Source: Pirellulales bacterium | GTDB taxonomy: Bacteria; Planctomycetota; Planctomycetia; Pirellulales; JADZDJ01 | Length of the DNA: 64,000 nt | Reading direction: 5' to 3' | Assembly: GCA_035656635.1 (NCBI GenBank) | Contig: DASRSD010000067.1 | Location: 1-64,000, forward strand | Shown: positions 46,859-54,069 of the stretch, one piece after another | Layout of the letters: every line of letters starts with the position of its first letter | Numbering within the stretch: position 1 is the first letter of the stretch | The notes under the pieces: generated by a model | The model's input: the letters and a program-made list of their open reading frames with translations, nothing else | Told to the model about the DNA's origin: nothing | The model's database searches: none | Program-made: the position numbers and the translations under genes

Positions 46859-47941
46859 TTAGCGGCCGCTGCCGGCTTGCCAACCGTCGTTGTTCGTCGA
46901 TGAATTGCTGTTCGAAGCAGCCGACCAGCCGCTGGTGGAATTGCTATTCTGGCTCGCCGGATACATCGCCGTGTGGAACACCGAGCCGCGATCGGCCGTG
47001 TTGAAAATGGCCGTTGTCACCTGGGGATTCATGAGCGAGGTTGAGGTGGTTCGGCTTTGTGGATCCAAGAGGCGCGGAGCGGCGCCGGAATTCATTTTGT
47101 CGTTATCTGGAATTGCAGTCGGCGGCGTCAACGATGAATTATTCTGCGGGGTGGCGCCGCTCGGCTGGAACGTGTTGGCTGGGGTGCTGCCCGCGGGCGG
47201 AGCAGCCGGCGTGGGCATGCCGTTCATCGACGGGGCAATCATCCCTTGCGGACCACTGGGGGGCATGCCGTATGCAGGCGGCGCTACATAGCCAGCAGGT
47301 GGCGCTGCATAGCCAGGAGCCGCGCCATAGCCTGGCGTGGTAGTCGTGGTGTAAGCCGGCGCCGCGGCGTAGCTAGGAGGCGTGGCGGCGTAAGCTGGGG
47401 CCGCGCCGTATAGCGAAGTCGTCGCTGCCGGAGCGGCGGTGTAAGCCGGTGGGCCGTACGAAACAGCCGCTCCGCCGCCGCAAGTAGCGCAGCCGCTGGT
47501 GGCAGCCGGTGCGTACGCCGCGCCGCTATAGTAGGGAGCGCTGGCGCCGCAACTGGTGCAGGCCGGGGCCGCATAATTTACTTGTGTGGCCACGGGCCGA
47601 TAGCTGGTATACGGAACCATCACAGGGCGGCGCACATACGTGGTGACGGGCTGCATCACCGTTTGCGAACCACCGCAAGGATCGCACGCAGCCACTGGCT
47701 GGCACGAAGTGCAAGGCACGCACGTATATTCCGTCCGGTAACTGGTTTGCGGCACGTAGCTAATTTGTTGCGGGCAAACGGCGCATGCGGGCGTGACGAC
47801 GGGCGCAGGGCAAACCGGTTCTTTCGGCTTGAACCAACAGCAGCACCAATCCGAAAAGCAACACGCCTGGCTTGTTCCACTGGCCAGCGCCACGGAAGTT
47901 ACCACAGCCGCTACGCTGCACCGCACAAATCTTTTGAACAT
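46859..47941 (-). CDS. Secreted Cys- and Ala/Pro/Tyr-rich repetitive protein
   Basis: A 360-residue exported protein. A signal peptide occupies residues 1-26 (VRCSVAAVVTSVALASG). The next 130 residues hold many Cys pairs and planctomycete-type short repeats (YVPQTSYRTEYTCVPC, PVTTYVRRPVMVPYTSYRP). The middle is made of AP/GY repeats (about 175-250) with YAAAPAYTT-type units, and the tail is Ser/Asn-rich. It is low in complexity and has no enzymatic motif. The family of similar proteins is common in planctomycetes, with no established function; a cell-surface structural role is inference. A strong terminator follows. Confidence 0.75.
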   Translation of the reverse strand: MFKRFVRCSVAAVVTSVALASGTSQACCFSDWCCCWFKPKEPVCPAPVVTPACAVCPQQISYVPQTSYRTEYTCVPCTSCQPVAACDPCGGSQTVMQPVTTYVRRPVMVPYTSYRPVATQVNYAAPACTSCGASAPYYSGAAYAPAATSGCATCGGGAAVSYGPPAYTAAPAATTSLYGAAPAYAATPPSYAAAPAYTTTTTPGYGAAPGYAAPPAGYVAPPAYGMPPSGPQGMIAPSMNGMPTPAAPPAGSTPANTFQPSGATPQNNSSLTPPTAIPDNDKMNSGAAPRLLDPQSRTTSTSLMNPQVTTAIFNTADRGSVFHTAMYPASQNSNSTSGWSAASNSNSSTNNDGWQAGSGR

Positions 47942-48302: not shown

Positions 48303-48956
48303 TTAGCCTGCACCGAGATGAACAAGCTCTTCTTGGGGTGACCCTTCCTGAGGCGCCCGCCGTCGCTGTTCGTACAAATCGTACAAGGCAAATAGGGTTT
48401 CGCGCACGTTGCCGGCGGCTGCCTGGAAGGCGGCGGCCACCTCTGCGTGGCCAATCTGCCCACCATGCGAGGGTAACACGTCGTCGATTAGGAACTGAAC
48501 GGTCGCCAAATCCGCCGCCGTGCGAAACAGAACCGGCAAGCTGCGATCAGTCGGCGCAGCATGCGCGGTAATCAACAGCCCCCAACGATGGCGCCGGCAC
48601 GCCGCGGCCAACCGTTGCCGCTGCCACCAACTCAGTTGCTCGTAACCGTCGATCACCAGCAGCCGGCGGCGTGTTGACTGGTGCGAGGCAGCGAGCGCAC
48701 CGGGCGGCAATTTCCTTTGACCGTTGTGCAATGCGATGAGCTGCACCGCCACATTTTGCTCCTTGATGAGCGGAATTAAGGAGGCCAGCAGTGTCGATTT
48801 TCCACTGCCGTGCGGGCCGACAATCGCTCCCCGCCAGCCAGCCGCTTGCAACCGCGCCACCACCGCGGCTGCATCGACGCCGGTGGAAAATAAATATGGG
48901 ACCGCTCCGGGTCGCACCCACCGTGTGGAAAACGGATTGCTTTGTCGGGATTGCAT
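48303..48956 (-). CDS. P-loop ATPase of unknown role (arrestin-like cluster)
   Basis: A 217-residue protein with a Walker A motif IVGPHGSGKSTLL near residues 45-57, a Walker B-like LLVIDGYEQL near 100, and LLITAHAAP as the likely sensor strand. The C-terminal 50 residues are helical with a Glu/Arg-rich end. It is small for an AAA or ABC protein and has no signature motif, so it belongs to a P-loop group I cannot name. It is the last gene of a three-gene minus-strand cluster; its start is 17 bp downstream of the arrestin-like gene's stop codon. It probably powers or switches something with that cluster. Confidence 0.75.
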   Translation of the reverse strand: MQSRQSNPFSTRWVRPGAVPYLFSTGVDAAAVVARLQAAGWRGAIVGPHGSGKSTLLASLIPLIKEQNVAVQLIALHNGQRKLPPGALAASHQSTRRRLLVIDGYEQLSWWQRQRLAAACRRHRWGLLITAHAAPTDRSLPVLFRTAADLATVQFLIDDVLPSHGGQIGHAEVAAAFQAAAGNVRETLFALYDLYEQRRRAPQEGSPQEELVHLGAG

Positions 48957-48973
48957 AGCCGCATCGCTCTTCG

Positions 48974-49402
48974 TTACTGACTACTTGCTTGCTCGCCGGA
49001 TCCCACGGGAGGCGGAACCGCGCCCAGGTGGAAGGCTTTTTCGGCCACAAAATCGCGCCCCTCGCGCAAAAATATTCGGACCCGCACGCACCAGCAAATT
49101 TTCACAGAGAACCCTTCATAACTCAACGGGCTATTGGGCAACACGGTTTGAAACCGGCGCCGTTGATGCAGATTCAGCTCCGGCACATCCTCGGCCGACA
49201 CGCGCTCGAAATAATGCACGCCTAAATCTTCGTCGCCGGCGCCTTCGGTAAACCACAGCACGGAAATTTCCACCGCCCGAAGCGCGGCGGGATCGACGGC
49301 GTCAATTTGAAAGGCGCCCGCCAAAACTTCGCCCGGCTCGAACTCTTGCTGGCGCTTGTCAATTTGAATGCTGATTAACGGCTGGCGAAGCATTTTGATC
49401 AT
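48974..49402 (-). CDS. Arrestin-like beta-sandwich protein
   Basis: The 142-residue product starts MIKMLRQPLISIQIDKRQQE and continues with EFEPGEVLAGAFQIDAVD, VEISVLWFTEGAGDEDLGV and LSYEGFSVKICWCVRVRIF. The pattern of a strand, then a PGE turn, then paired strands ending in a conserved WxVRVxI segment matches the arrestin N-like / Spo0M-type fold. Those proteins bind other proteins, often at membranes. The ATG at 49402 is chosen over one at 49444 because it matches the start of the domain, has a GAGAG site and avoids overlap with the upstream gene. It lies between the ATPase and a membrane protein with a similar domain. Confidence 0.65.
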   Translation of the reverse strand: MIKMLRQPLISIQIDKRQQEFEPGEVLAGAFQIDAVDPAALRAVEISVLWFTEGAGDEDLGVHYFERVSAEDVPELNLHQRRRFQTVLPNSPLSYEGFSVKICWCVRVRIFLREGRDFVAEKAFHLGAVPPPVGSGEQASSQ

Positions 49403-49418
49403 GGAAAAATCTCTCTTC

Positions 49419-50747
49419 TCATCCGCGCGGTGCGCCAACTTCATGGCCTACGCCGGCTGCCGGCTCATCGGCTTGAGCGCCATTTGACCGCTCCGGCGGA
49501 TACACCACCACCGCATAGCTCCGCTCGAACGCTGGCCACCCCTCCGCCTCGCCCCGCGCAATCAGCTTCCATTGCACTTGATTGTGATCGGCCTCGAAGG
49601 AATGCATGGCCCCTGGCGGCACACGAAACTCGGCAACAATTTCGAACGGCTCGCCCGGAACAATTTCAAAATTCTGCTTCTGCAATAATTGCTGCGTGTA
49701 GACTTCCCGGCGATCAGTGCGAGTATCGGTTCCTTGATGAAATGTGGCCTGCTCCTCGCAGCGCAAAAGCACCTCGAAGGTTTTCACCGACAAATGCCCC
49801 TGCTGCGCCACGTACAACTCGTAAGCAACGCCGGGCAGCAGCGGATGGGCCGATATTTCTACAATCGTGGGACCCACGCCCGTGGCAATTAAAATCTCGC
49901 GCACAAAGTAATAAATGAGAAAACAACCCACCAGGAAAAATGGGAGCACCAGCAAATCGAGCGGCCAATCGCCGGCGCCTTGCAAGTGCTTGCGCACTGC
50001 CAGCACGACAAACACCGCGACAATGCCGTTCCAAATCAGGCAAATGGTTGTGGCCGCCAGCAAGCGCCAGCCCTGCGATGCACTGCTGGGCAAGCGATAC
50101 TTCAATTGCGTGCCCGGGCTGTTGGTTAAATCGGCATCGAACGGCACGGTGGGATAATCTTTCGCCCGCGCGCTTTGTTCTTCAAATAAATCGATGCGCC
50201 CAAGTTGCCCTCGCGCCGCCTGATGCTCCGGCGAGCGCCCCCAATGCCACAGCGTGTACGCCAAGCCGCCGCCGCCGATGAGCATAAAGCCGCTGGGCGC
50301 CAACAGCAACATCCAAAACCATAAGCTGTATCCGCGCACCAGCACCGCCACGCTGGGATCGAGCGGATCGTACCAGCAAGCGTACGCTTGGCCAATTTCG
50401 TAGCGATCCAAAAGCGATTGCGCGTCTGCTTCGTGGCTGGTGGACGTGGAGGCAATGTCGTAGGTCCAAATATCGTCGGGCGACTGGTCGTACTGGATTT
50501 TCGCTTTCGGCACGTACAGCAGGTTGCCGTCCGGATCGTGCCGATGCTCGATTCGCTTTTCGAGGATGGTCGCCGTGGTTTCCAAAAATTCGTGATTAGC
50601 CCGCCACTCCGGAATGACTTTTCGGGCGAGCAGCAGCACCAAAAATGCGGTCCCCATGGTCAACAGCAGGGCGAAGAACACCACTTCGCCGACATTCCGC
50701 AGAGTCTTCGACCCCGTGCGGCGATGACCGCGCTTCTTACCGAACAT
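49419..50747 (-). CDS. Membrane protein with DUF3592 and arrestin-like region
   Basis: A 442-residue protein from the ATG at 50747 (MFGKKRGHRRTGSKTLRNVG). The first hydrophobic helix is at about 22-42. A DUF3592-type domain follows (TATILEKRIEHRHDPDG, then IGQAYACWYDPLDPSVAVLV), then a helix near 140, two more near 230-275, and a large C-terminal beta-rich region starting VEISAHPLLPGVAYELYV, with FEIVPGEPFEIVAEFRVPPG and a final AVVVYPP. That region resembles the arrestin C-like fold. The frame runs upstream to 50957 without a conserved start. It is the first gene of the cluster, followed 17 bases later by the small arrestin-like gene. Confidence 0.65.
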   Translation of the reverse strand: MFGKKRGHRRTGSKTLRNVGEVVFFALLLTMGTAFLVLLLARKVIPEWRANHEFLETTATILEKRIEHRHDPDGNLLYVPKAKIQYDQSPDDIWTYDIASTSTSHEADAQSLLDRYEIGQAYACWYDPLDPSVAVLVRGYSLWFWMLLLAPSGFMLIGGGGLAYTLWHWGRSPEHQAARGQLGRIDLFEEQSARAKDYPTVPFDADLTNSPGTQLKYRLPSSASQGWRLLAATTICLIWNGIVAVFVVLAVRKHLQGAGDWPLDLLVLPFFLVGCFLIYYFVREILIATGVGPTIVEISAHPLLPGVAYELYVAQQGHLSVKTFEVLLRCEEQATFHQGTDTRTDRREVYTQQLLQKQNFEIVPGEPFEIVAEFRVPPGAMHSFEADHNQVQWKLIARGEAEGWPAFERSYAVVVYPPERSNGAQADEPAAGVGHEVGAPRG

Positions 50748-50989
50748 GCGGAACGATCGAGCCACGTCCGTAATGAGGGCTAAGGAAAAAAATGTGCGGG
50801 GAAAGACGCAGCAAATCAATGCTTGGGCGCCAGCAGCGCCGACAGTTTGAGTGTACACCTTCCGCCTGGCAACGCCAGCCTGCCACAGGCGCACAGAGGC
50901 ATACGCACCGCAAGAACCTCGCGGAAAATGCGGCTTCTCCTGCTTTCTCAGCGCCACGGTCTATTTCGACCCGCGTGCAAACGAATTGG

Positions 50990-51271
50990 TTAGGCTATGC
51001 TGACCTCGGCCTGGCGGTTCGGGCGGAAAAAGCCGATGCCTTCCAGGGCGGTATAAACCTCTTCCAATGTCTTTTCGCCGAAGTTGGAAATGCTCAGCAA
51101 ATCATCGCGAGTGCAATTCAACAGATCGTCCACCGTGAAGATGCCCCGTTCCTCCAGGCAATTGGTGGTTCGCACCGAAAGGCCGATTTCGGCGGTGCTC
51201 ATTTCGAGCCGTTCGGCCAAACCATCGTGCGGACTGGAAATAGTATTCAGCGGAATACGAGTGCGACTCAT
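50990..51271 (-). CDS. Free-standing RNA polymerase alpha C-terminal domain-like protein
   Basis: A 93-residue protein that is essentially one alpha-CTD: LSVRTTNCLEERGIFTVDDL, then LLNCTRDDLLSISNFGEKTL, then EEVYTALEGIGF. This is the helix-hairpin-helix arrangement by which alpha-CTD contacts UP elements and activators. The N-terminal alpha assembly domain is absent. A strong GGGAGG precedes the ATG at 51271, which settles the start (the frame otherwise runs to 51394). Such orphan CTDs are seen in planctomycetes. They might bind DNA or compete with polymerase for activators; neither is shown here. Confidence 0.85.
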   Translation of the reverse strand: MSRTRIPLNTISSPHDGLAERLEMSTAEIGLSVRTTNCLEERGIFTVDDLLNCTRDDLLSISNFGEKTLEEVYTALEGIGFFRPNRQAEVSIA

Positions 51272-51675
51272 GGGTTCCCTCCCGTCAACTAGCGCTTCCT
51301 TCCGGCACGCGACCCCACCATGAGTTCGAATACGCACCGGATGTTGAAGTGCTAGTATAACGAAATTTCCAATTTCGCCAACTACTTTGCCCAAGTTTCC
51401 AAAAAAAATTCGTGCTCATCTTCTATGTCGCCTCTTCGGACGGCGCGGTCAACACAAACGCTAGCATGTGCGCTGCCCTTCGCGGCGTGTGTGCTAGCGG
51501 TATACTTATGTATGGTAGGCAGTGGTCGGTGATCAATGGTCGGTGAACCGAACGATTGATTTCTCGTCGACTCCAAAGAGTCTTTGCAACTTGGTTCACC
51601 AACTACAGGCAATCAACAACCATTACTGACAACTGGCCGCCGATCACTCAACCTCTCACACTGCGTTGCCGTCTC
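51272..51675. other. Intergenic stretch before the helicase gene, with nested inverted repeats
   Basis: About 400 bases. The only open frame (51382-51612 minus) lacks motifs and is rejected. Within 51542-51600, GGTGAACC and GGTTCACC are perfect inverse copies enclosing a small hairpin, GACTC-CAAA-GAGTC, followed by TTTG. Also present are two GGTCGGTG motifs (51523 and 51539). The nested repeats lie 76 bases upstream of the helicase start and may belong to its leader. Confidence 0.5.
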
Positions 51676-54069
51676 ATGAGCATCGAACAACTTACCGAAG
51701 CCCAATTGGCAGCCGTGCGGCATGTCGACGGTCCGCTGCTCATTCTTGCCGGTCCGGGGAGCGGCAAAACGCGCGTGGTTACGCATCGCATTGCAAACCT
51801 GCTGGAGTTGGGCGTTCCGGCGCGGCACATTTTAGCGCTCACCTTCACCAACAAAGCGGCCGATGAAATGAAGCGTCGCGTGGCCCTGCTGGCCCCGCTG
51901 GCCGCCGTGTGGATGAGCACTTTTCACCGTTTTTGCGCGCAGCTGTTGCGGGAATACGCCCCGTACATTGGGCTGCCGGAAAACTACACCATTTACGACA
52001 CTTCCGACAGCTTGCAAGCCCTGCGGCACACGCTCGATGCGCTCGATTTAGACCTCACCCACACCACGCCGGAGCGCGTGCAATCGGCCATGAGCTGGGC
52101 CAAAAACAATCTCATTACGCCGGAGCAATACGAACCCCGCAAAGGCAGTCCGGTGGGCGCTATCGTGGCCCGCGTGTATCCGGAATATCAAAAGCGGTTG
52201 TTGGCGAGCGGAGCGGTCGATTTCGACGATCTGCTGTTGCACACGGCGGTATTGTTGCGCGAGAACCCGGAAATTCGCCGCCGGCTGGACGATCGCTACC
52301 GTTACATTTTGGTCGACGAATATCAAGACACCAATTTAGCGCAGTACACCATTGTGCGGGCGATGTCGGTTGACTATCCGAACCTGGCGGTCACCGGCGA
52401 TCCGGATCAATCGATTTACGGCTGGCGCGGCGCGAACCTCAGCAACATTCTGGATTTTGAGCACGATTATCCGAACGTGAAGATCGTGCGGTTGGAGCAA
52501 AACTACCGCAGCACCAAGCGCATTTTGCGCGTGGCCGATCGGCTCATCTCCTTCAATAAGCGACGCAAGCTGAAAACGCTGTTCACCGACAATGCCGAAG
52601 GGCGCGCGGTGCAATTGATTTTTCATCCTACGCAAAAAGATGAAGCGGAGCAAATTGCCGGCACGATCGAAGCTGAAGTGCGCTCCGGCCGACGCCGCCC
52701 GCGCGATTTCGCGATTTTTTACCGGACCAATGCGTTATCTCGGGCGTTGGAATTTGCGCTGCGCGAATACGGCATTCCGTACCAAATGATCAACGGCCTG
52801 GAATTTTATCAGCGCAAGGAAATCAAGGATGTGCTGGCGTATTTGCACTTGCTGAACAATCCGCGCGACAACGTGGCTTTCGCGCGCATCATCAACACGC
52901 CGCCACGGGGCATTGGCCGCGGCACCATCGGCAGGCTGCAAGATTACGCCGCCACACGGGGTTTCTCGCTCCTTTCGGCCGCGCGCGAGGCCGGTTTGAT
53001 CGAAGGCCTGAATAAAAGGGCGGCCGTGGGGGTGGCCAAGTTTGTGGCCCTGTTCGATCACGTGACGCTGGCGGCCGGCGCCCCGGTGGAAGAAATTATC
53101 GGGCGAGTGCTGGCCGATTCCGGTTATCACGATTTTCTAAAAGAGTCGGAAGACGAAGACGACCAGGAACGGCTGGCCAACATCGAAGAATTGCTCACCG
53201 CCGCCCGCGAGTTCGACGAAACCCATCCTGGCCCGGGCGCGCTGGAGGCATTTTTGGAGCAGGCCGCCTTGGTGAACGACACCGATGCCTGGGAAGTGGA
53301 CGACGACCGGGTCACGCTCATGACCGTTCACGCCGCCAAGGGCTTAGAATTTCCGGTGGTATTTATCATCGCGCTGGAAGAAGGCATTTTCCCGCACGAG
53401 CGCAGCCGCAATGAGGAAGAACAATTGGAAGAGGAGCGCCGGCTGCTGTTTGTGGGCGTCACGCGGGCCAAGGAAGAATTGTATTTGAATCGCGCTTGCT
53501 ATCGCCATTACCGCGGTCAATTCCGGCCGACGGTGCCCAGCGCGTTTCTGATGGAGCTGCCCCAAGAGGAGCTGGACTTCCAGCAGCCGCAAACTGCGCC
53601 ATTACCGGAGCCGGCGTTTTCCGATTTGCATGCGGAAGATCAACATGGCGATGATGCCATCGATTTCGATCCGCACGATTTGGAATTTCCCTCGCCGCCT
53701 TCCGAAGCTGGCCAAGTAGCCGCCTCTCTTTCTGCCGGAGCCGACAATTCTTCACTCTCTCTCCCTTTGGAAGAGGGCCGGGGTGAGGGTGCTGTGTCCG
53801 CACCACCCTTTCGCTTCACCACTGCCGCCGAATTGGCCGCACGCAGCGCCTCAGCAGCCCCGGGCCAAGCAGCACCATCCCTGCCAAGCATTTCGCCGGA
53901 AGTGTTCCACCAGGGCATGGTCGTGCGCCATCCGCATTACGGCCTGGGAAAAATCGTGGCCCTCTCCGGCAGCGGCCTAAAGCGCAAAGCCACGGTCATG
54001 TTCGCCTCCAGTGCCGGCGAAAAACGTTTTTTGCTGGCTCATAGCCCGCTATGCCCGGCCTCTTTATAA
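51676..54069 (+). CDS. ATP-dependent DNA helicase, UvrD/PcrA family
   Basis: A superfamily 1A 3'-5' helicase of 797 residues. Motifs in order: Walker A AGPGSGKT (near residue 27), Q-motif region LTEAQLAAVRH, VDEYQDTN (motif II), VTGDPDQSIYGWRGA (motif III), VHAAKGLEFPVVFI (motif V) and LLFVGVTRAKEELY (motif VI). The C-terminus ends in a Tudor-like piece (VRHPHYGLGKIVAL), which PcrA uses to touch RNA polymerase. The ATG at 51676 was chosen because the conserved N-terminus begins there; the frame starts at 51556. Between the helicase core and the Tudor piece there is an acidic low-complexity linker carrying an inserted repeat. Confidence 0.94.
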   Translation: MSIEQLTEAQLAAVRHVDGPLLILAGPGSGKTRVVTHRIANLLELGVPARHILALTFTNKAADEMKRRVALLAPLAAVWMSTFHRFCAQLLREYAPYIGLPENYTIYDTSDSLQALRHTLDALDLDLTHTTPERVQSAMSWAKNNLITPEQYEPRKGSPVGAIVARVYPEYQKRLLASGAVDFDDLLLHTAVLLRENPEIRRRLDDRYRYILVDEYQDTNLAQYTIVRAMSVDYPNLAVTGDPDQSIYGWRGANLSNILDFEHDYPNVKIVRLEQNYRSTKRILRVADRLISFNKRRKLKTLFTDNAEGRAVQLIFHPTQKDEAEQIAGTIEAEVRSGRRRPRDFAIFYRTNALSRALEFALREYGIPYQMINGLEFYQRKEIKDVLAYLHLLNNPRDNVAFARIINTPPRGIGRGTIGRLQDYAATRGFSLLSAAREAGLIEGLNKRAAVGVAKFVALFDHVTLAAGAPVEEIIGRVLADSGYHDFLKESEDEDDQERLANIEELLTAAREFDETHPGPGALEAFLEQAALVNDTDAWEVDDDRVTLMTVHAAKGLEFPVVFIIALEEGIFPHERSRNEEEQLEEERRLLFVGVTRAKEELYLNRACYRHYRGQFRPTVPSAFLMELPQEELDFQQPQTAPLPEPAFSDLHAEDQHGDDAIDFDPHDLEFPSPPSEAGQVAASLSAGADNSSLSLPLEEGRGEGAVSAPPFRFTTAAELAARSASAAPGQAAPSLPSISPEVFHQGMVVRHPHYGLGKIVALSGSGLKRKATVMFASSAGEKRFLLAHSPLCPASL
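53753..53790 (+). repeat. REP-like repeat embedded in the helicase coding sequence
   Basis: Bases CTCTCTCTCCCTTTGGAAGA followed by GGGCCGGGGTGAGGGTG match the short palindromic intergenic repeat widely seen in proteobacterial and planctomycete genomes (CCCTCTCCC...GGGAGAGGG-type, then CGGGGTGAGGG). Here it lies in frame within the linker of the helicase and encodes SLPLEEGRGEGA. The frame is not broken. Confidence 0.6.

Follow-up and report, generated by a model that had tools for sequence, protein, structure and literature searches.

Inspection of the open reading frames in the window, the whole 64,000-nucleotide stretch of DNA that was analysed, revealed three minus-strand genes, referred to here as P1, P2 and P3, which are arranged head to tail and tightly packed (Table 1), the close packing having been described in an earlier note on this DNA. 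The gaps between the genes are 16 bases (P1-P2) and 17 bases (P2-P3), so that the value of 17 given earlier for both holds for the second. The end of the cluster at 48303 was likewise placed correctly, but the ATG at 50747 is probably not the start of P1: translation probably begins at the GTG at 50765, because VARSFRMFGKKRG fits the family start MARxFRxFxKKRG, and the cluster span would therefore be 48303-50765. Profile searches of the 4.9-Mb genome to which the window belongs found one match each for P1 and P2, and P3 is also present in single copy, the second match to its profile being a RarA-like ATPase on another contig. Scans for promoters and terminators gave signals no better than chance. 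Just upstream of P1 lies a gene for a stand-alone RNA polymerase alpha C-terminal domain protein (50990-51394, minus strand; RNA_pol_A_CTD E-value 1.8e-18) and, beside it, a divergent UvrD/PcrA gene (51556-54069). On the other side of the cluster, a minus-strand gene (46859-47941) encodes a protein that is rich in Cys, Pro and Tyr, starts with a CC-rich segment, is probably secreted and has no Pfam match; it is reminiscent of planctomycete wall proteins.

Table 1. Coordinates of the three genes and of the two P1 domains in the window
Feature	Coordinates	Strand	Length or residues	Description
P1	50747..49419 from ATG; alternative GTG start at 50765	-	442 aa from ATG; ~448 aa from GTG	Membrane protein
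P1 DUF3592 domain	50328..50579	-	Residues 57-140	Pfam domain, predicted extracytoplasmic
P1 C-terminal arrestin-fold domain	49494..49871	-	~Residues 293-418 of the 442-aa form	Predicted with AlphaFold2 and Foldseek
P2	49402..48974	-	142 aa	Putative soluble single arrestin lobe, N-lobe equivalent
P3	48956..48303	-	217 aa	Small AAA+ ATPase (predicted fold)

The protein P1 has four transmembrane (TM) helices, a DUF3592 ectodomain and a C-terminal beta sandwich, in the order basic N-terminus, TM1, DUF3592, TM2, linker, TM3-TM4 hairpin and arrestin-fold domain, and the linker between TM2 and TM3 carries a conserved SPGTxLxYRLP motif. DUF3592 is its sole Pfam match above cut-off (E-value 3.6e-10) and was found in all 44 aligned P1 orthologues; neither Arrestin_N nor Arrestin_C of Pfam matches the protein. 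An AlphaFold2 model built from 79 sequences (pLDDT 88 overall and mostly above 90 in the C-terminal domain) consists of a TM helix, a beta ectodomain, a second TM helix, the linker, a TM hairpin and the beta sandwich, the last at residues 294-417. Foldseek searches against the PDB returned arrestin-clan structures first, with the N-lobe of ARRDC3 at an E-value of 3e-8 and a target TM-score of 0.69, followed in order by TXNIP, Spo0M (PDB identifier 5cl2; E-value 6.4e-7) and then beta-arrestins and Vps26, and the C-terminal domain is accordingly predicted to be an arrestin lobe. Charge counts over the 79 sequences favour a topology in which the N-terminus, the linker and the sandwich are inside and DUF3592 and the TM3-TM4 loop are outside. 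On this positive-inside pattern we place the N-terminus, the linker and the arrestin lobe in the cytosol, with the ectodomain probably outside.

For P2, a profile compared with the PDB matched solely arrestins, TXNIP and Vps26, the best E-value being 4e-4 with the wider alignment. When 46 P2 orthologues were scanned singly, 18 matched Arrestin_C and 15 matched Arrestin_N at an E-value of 0.1 or better, the best single match to the Arrestin models having an E-value of about 3e-5; the P2 of the window scores 16.1 bits against Arrestin_N, under the Pfam cut-off of 24.9. This profile evidence suggests that P2 is an arrestin-type beta sandwich. When the profiles of the P1 lobe and of P2 were compared, no significant similarity emerged, and for this reason we refrain from calling the two homologous by sequence; what connects them is their common fold and the two-lobe variants described below.

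The third protein, P3, carries the Walker A motif GPHGSGKS and the Walker B motif DGYEQL, and an N-terminal NPF, K53 (Walker A), D103 (Walker B), H132 and R185 are invariant among 77 sequences. R185 is located in the lid at the sensor-2 position, this name, like that of sensor 1 for the H132 region, being given by place in the fold. The structure model from the 77 sequences (pLDDT 90) has a three-helix lid, and its Foldseek matches include AAA+ clamp loaders (RFC, E-value 2.6e-6), ORC and Hda, with which it shares the alpha-beta core, helical lid, Walker A and B motifs and sensor-2 arginine. On this model P3 is a reduced AAA+ ATPase of the clamp-loader/ORC/Hda type, but it differs from that clade in being very small, in having no helices alpha2 and alpha4 in the model and in its partner genes, which are arrestin-like rather than DNA-linked. 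Apart from R185, no column of the P3 core has arginine at 75% or more, so that there is no conserved arginine finger. A canonical ring ATPase appears unlikely because both helix alpha4 and a conserved arginine-finger column are missing, and the model would fit a switch-type better than an unfoldase-type AAA+ protein.

The domain assignments of the earlier note thus largely hold. Its DUF3592 domain in P1 passes the Pfam cut-off, and the arrestin-like character it proposed for the C-terminus of P1 and for P2 came through the structure search and the profile matches, respectively. Of the two outcomes that the note had named as refuting its reading, a fold other than arrestin and genes that never occur together among relatives, neither was observed. 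What it called a small P-loop ATPase does have invariant Walker A and B residues, but this was an underestimate of a protein with an AAA+ lid and a sensor-2 arginine; a profile search against P-loop families was run, and no Pfam or NCBIfam model matched P3 above cut-off, the AAA+ assignment coming from the fold.

The genes are conserved across the order, taken to be Pirellulales from the named relatives. Of 58 genomes sampled from the order, 56 carry P1; of the two others, one is 70% complete and one has a fragment of P3 where a contig ends. Among 53 P1 loci, 42 have P1-P2-P3 in order on one strand, three are cut off by the end of a contig and the remaining eight are split, so that the three-gene order is kept in 42 of the 50 loci in which it could be tested. 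P2 is present in all eight genomes with split loci, and in seven of them P3 is found elsewhere in the genome, the eighth genome being 83% complete. More generally, where P3 does not adjoin P1-P2 it occupies a separate site in 10 of 11 genomes, and the remaining one (G002) retains a P2-P3 pair. Of 80 named loci, some of them from genomes that are also in the order sample, 69 have all three genes, and the named carriers include Blastopirellula marina DSM 3645 (P1, P2 and P3; L210) and Thermogutta MAGs. An overlap of exactly 4 bases joins the reading frames in 95 of 141 P1-P2 pairs and in 48 of 124 P2-P3 pairs. Conservation of gene order and coupling across the order places the cluster far beyond chance. 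Six contigs labelled Candidatus Kuenenia stuttgartiensis (L194, L196, L198, L212, L213 and L229) carry a Pirellulales-type P1, and the names of those MAGs may therefore be wrong. Divergent clusters (L084-L089) have short P1-like genes without DUF3592, together with P2 and mostly also P3, and in L087 and L089 two such short genes stand in tandem.

Across the phylum, full P1 was found in 25 of 294 genomes and P3 in all 25 of these, even when located elsewhere (Fisher 2e-35, a value that ignores relatedness and to which vertical inheritance contributes in part); one additional P3 fragment was found at a contig end. In the genomes with P1, P3 is matched at E-values below 1e-16, and the next independent matches to the P3 profile begin at about 2e-7. 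P1 and P3 are jointly present or absent inside at least six families, and P3 is retained, although far away from P1-P2, in three genomes that belong to one genus of the same class. In far families no further partner gene is shared beside the module, the candidates being mainly reverse-strand shadow open reading frames. Since the genes stay together through evolution, the three very likely work as one unit.

In L045 and L146 the genes of P1 and P2 are fused into a single reading frame; the alignments that combined fused and separate rows (A4 and A5) were misaligned and were left out of folding. Furthermore, nine loci of distant planctomycetes (L118, L124, L126, L127, L128, L129, L150, L151 and L152) encode a single protein in which a P2-like domain is followed by a TM hairpin and then by a P1-like lobe. 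The L150 form of this two-lobe variant matches Arrestin_N (E-value 4e-14) and then Arrestin_C (E-value 9.2e-13), both passing the Pfam cut-offs. An NPF-type P3-like ATPase gene is directly upstream of the variant in L126, L129, L150 and L152, and in L151 such a gene lies beside it as a fragment at a contig end. The variants of L126, L151 and L152 have an extra C-terminal domain. P2 is homologous to the N lobe of these variants and the P1 lobe to their C lobe, and, given the variants and the P1-P2 fusions, the two appear to be the corresponding halves of a split arrestin that is anchored in the membrane. That its two arrestin domains may be the two lobes of one arrestin had escaped the earlier note. 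DUF3592 is an accessory part of the module, since L078, L081-L083 and the two-lobe variants do without it and L116 and L146 have it twice. Most DUF3592 matches in the phylum are without an arrestin part.

The arrestin fold is best known from the control of animal receptors and organises membrane-receptor traffic in eukaryotes. Alpha-arrestins, TXNIP, ARRDC3 and Vps26, which P1 and P2 resemble in lobe fold and the variant in its succession of Arrestin_N and Arrestin_C, are soluble eukaryotic trafficking adaptors with both lobes on one chain, whereas the proteins of the window have them on two genes. We know of no dedicated AAA+ partner of eukaryotic arrestins, nor of an ATPase and membrane anchor in arrestins elsewhere. 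Bacterial relatives, essentially Spo0M, have to our knowledge barely been studied. In 2008, Spo0M alone was described as a prokaryotic member of the arrestin clan (PMC2515105). In the open-licence literature searched, work on bacterial or planctomycete arrestins consisted of papers on Spo0M and the arrestin clan in which the module is not reported, no description of Arrestin_N-TM-TM-Arrestin_C proteins was found, and DUF3592 (PF12158), the domain of the P1 ectodomain, was mentioned just once, in passing.

Based on these similarities, we propose that the three proteins form one membrane-bound machine, a split arrestin with an AAA+ switch or loader and an optional envelope sensor, a reading to which we give a probability of about one half. 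P1 would cross the inner membrane four times, with DUF3592 outside and the arrestin lobe inside, and the cytosolic P2 would be the matching second lobe. Together they would make up a membrane-located arrestin with two lobes, which would resemble Spo0M, Vps26 or an alpha-arrestin except that it is divided between two chains. P3 may act as an ATP-dependent switch or loader which binds the lobe pair or the conserved linker of P1 and controls when the lobes meet and when a client protein is held or released, and the P1 ectodomain may provide an optional input from the envelope. The physical complex, the topology, the direction of signalling and the ATP switching, the last already suggested earlier as an ATP-driven switch, are what we infer from this arrangement. 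Selection appears to act on the split arrestin and the AAA+ ATPase at the membrane as one unit, for which an ATP-gated adaptor or scaffold with optional envelope input would be the most likely mechanism.

The main rival, drawn by analogy, is that the split arrestin serves as a static, Spo0M-like scaffold for division or envelope assembly and P3 as an assembly chaperone with no switch, which we regard as possible though distinctly less probable. Spo0M (PF07070) is the closest bacterial relative by fold and, through the two-lobe variants of L150 and L126, which pass its Pfam cut-off, also by Pfam. In Bacillus subtilis, the cells of a spo0M mutant are elongated and show defects of the membrane, and division proteins are among the interaction partners of Spo0M (PMC5325327). 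In 30 of the 53 order loci the gene after P3 encodes the Cys/Pro/Tyr-rich, presumably secreted protein, but this gene has no linkage to the module outside the order and its position may therefore be plain synteny. Neither the proteins of the window nor its genome (G000) match PF07070, for which a B. subtilis control was positive, and Spo0M is one soluble chain, whereas the module has its lobes on two genes, one of them membrane-anchored, and a linked AAA+ gene.

It is rather improbable that P3 is a STAND-type signalling NTPase with the arrestin lobes as receptor and effector arms of a stress or conflict sensor. P3 does approach the NACHT model (24.1 bits against a cut-off of 26.7) and, likewise below threshold, nSTAND, one NLR is among its Foldseek matches, and an invariant arginine finger is missing; nevertheless, it is a lone domain with no added sensor or effector domains, and its best folds are those of the clamp loader, ORC and Hda. 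The earlier statement that no known defence module is present agrees with PADLOC, which has no family for P1 or P2 and only P-loop-level matches for P3. The module is also single-copy and near-universal in the order, unlike most defence genes, and P1 is unmatched in plasmids and P2 in phages and viral contigs; on these searches the defence and mobile-element readings were dropped.

That these are unrelated housekeeping genes left adjoining by slow genome rearrangement is very improbable: the UvrD and secreted-protein neighbours are also partly syntenic within the order, but P1 and P3 co-occur even when apart, P1-P2 fusions exist, and the three genes are found together in far families sharing no other neighbour, all of which contradicts a chance neighbourhood. 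Finally, a KirBac-type two-TM ion channel regulated by P2 and P3 is nearly excluded by the sequence of P1. KirBac structures, which have a TM pair and an Ig-like domain in common with P1, do appear in its Foldseek list (E-value about 2e-4), but the best arrestin matches surpass them by about four orders of magnitude, and the TM3-TM4 loop of ~10 residues is too short to hold a pore helix and lacks a selectivity-filter motif.

Returning to the split arrestin with its AAA+ partner, a bolder and more tentative possibility, which we consider unlikely on present evidence, is that the ATPase opens and closes the membrane-anchored arrestin and so captures or releases membrane clients, as a lineage-wide, ATP-powered bacterial system. 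We know of no counterpart to such ATP-powered opening and closing of an arrestin in bacteria or eukaryotes. The envelope and the endocytosis-like traits of the order are debated, and the module, near-universal and single-copy there, would add an ATPase and a membrane anchor to the arrestin fold. The small size of the three genes, the one invariant Walker lysine and the availability of Blastopirellula marina DSM 3645 in culture would make an arrestin-type membrane adaptor directly testable.
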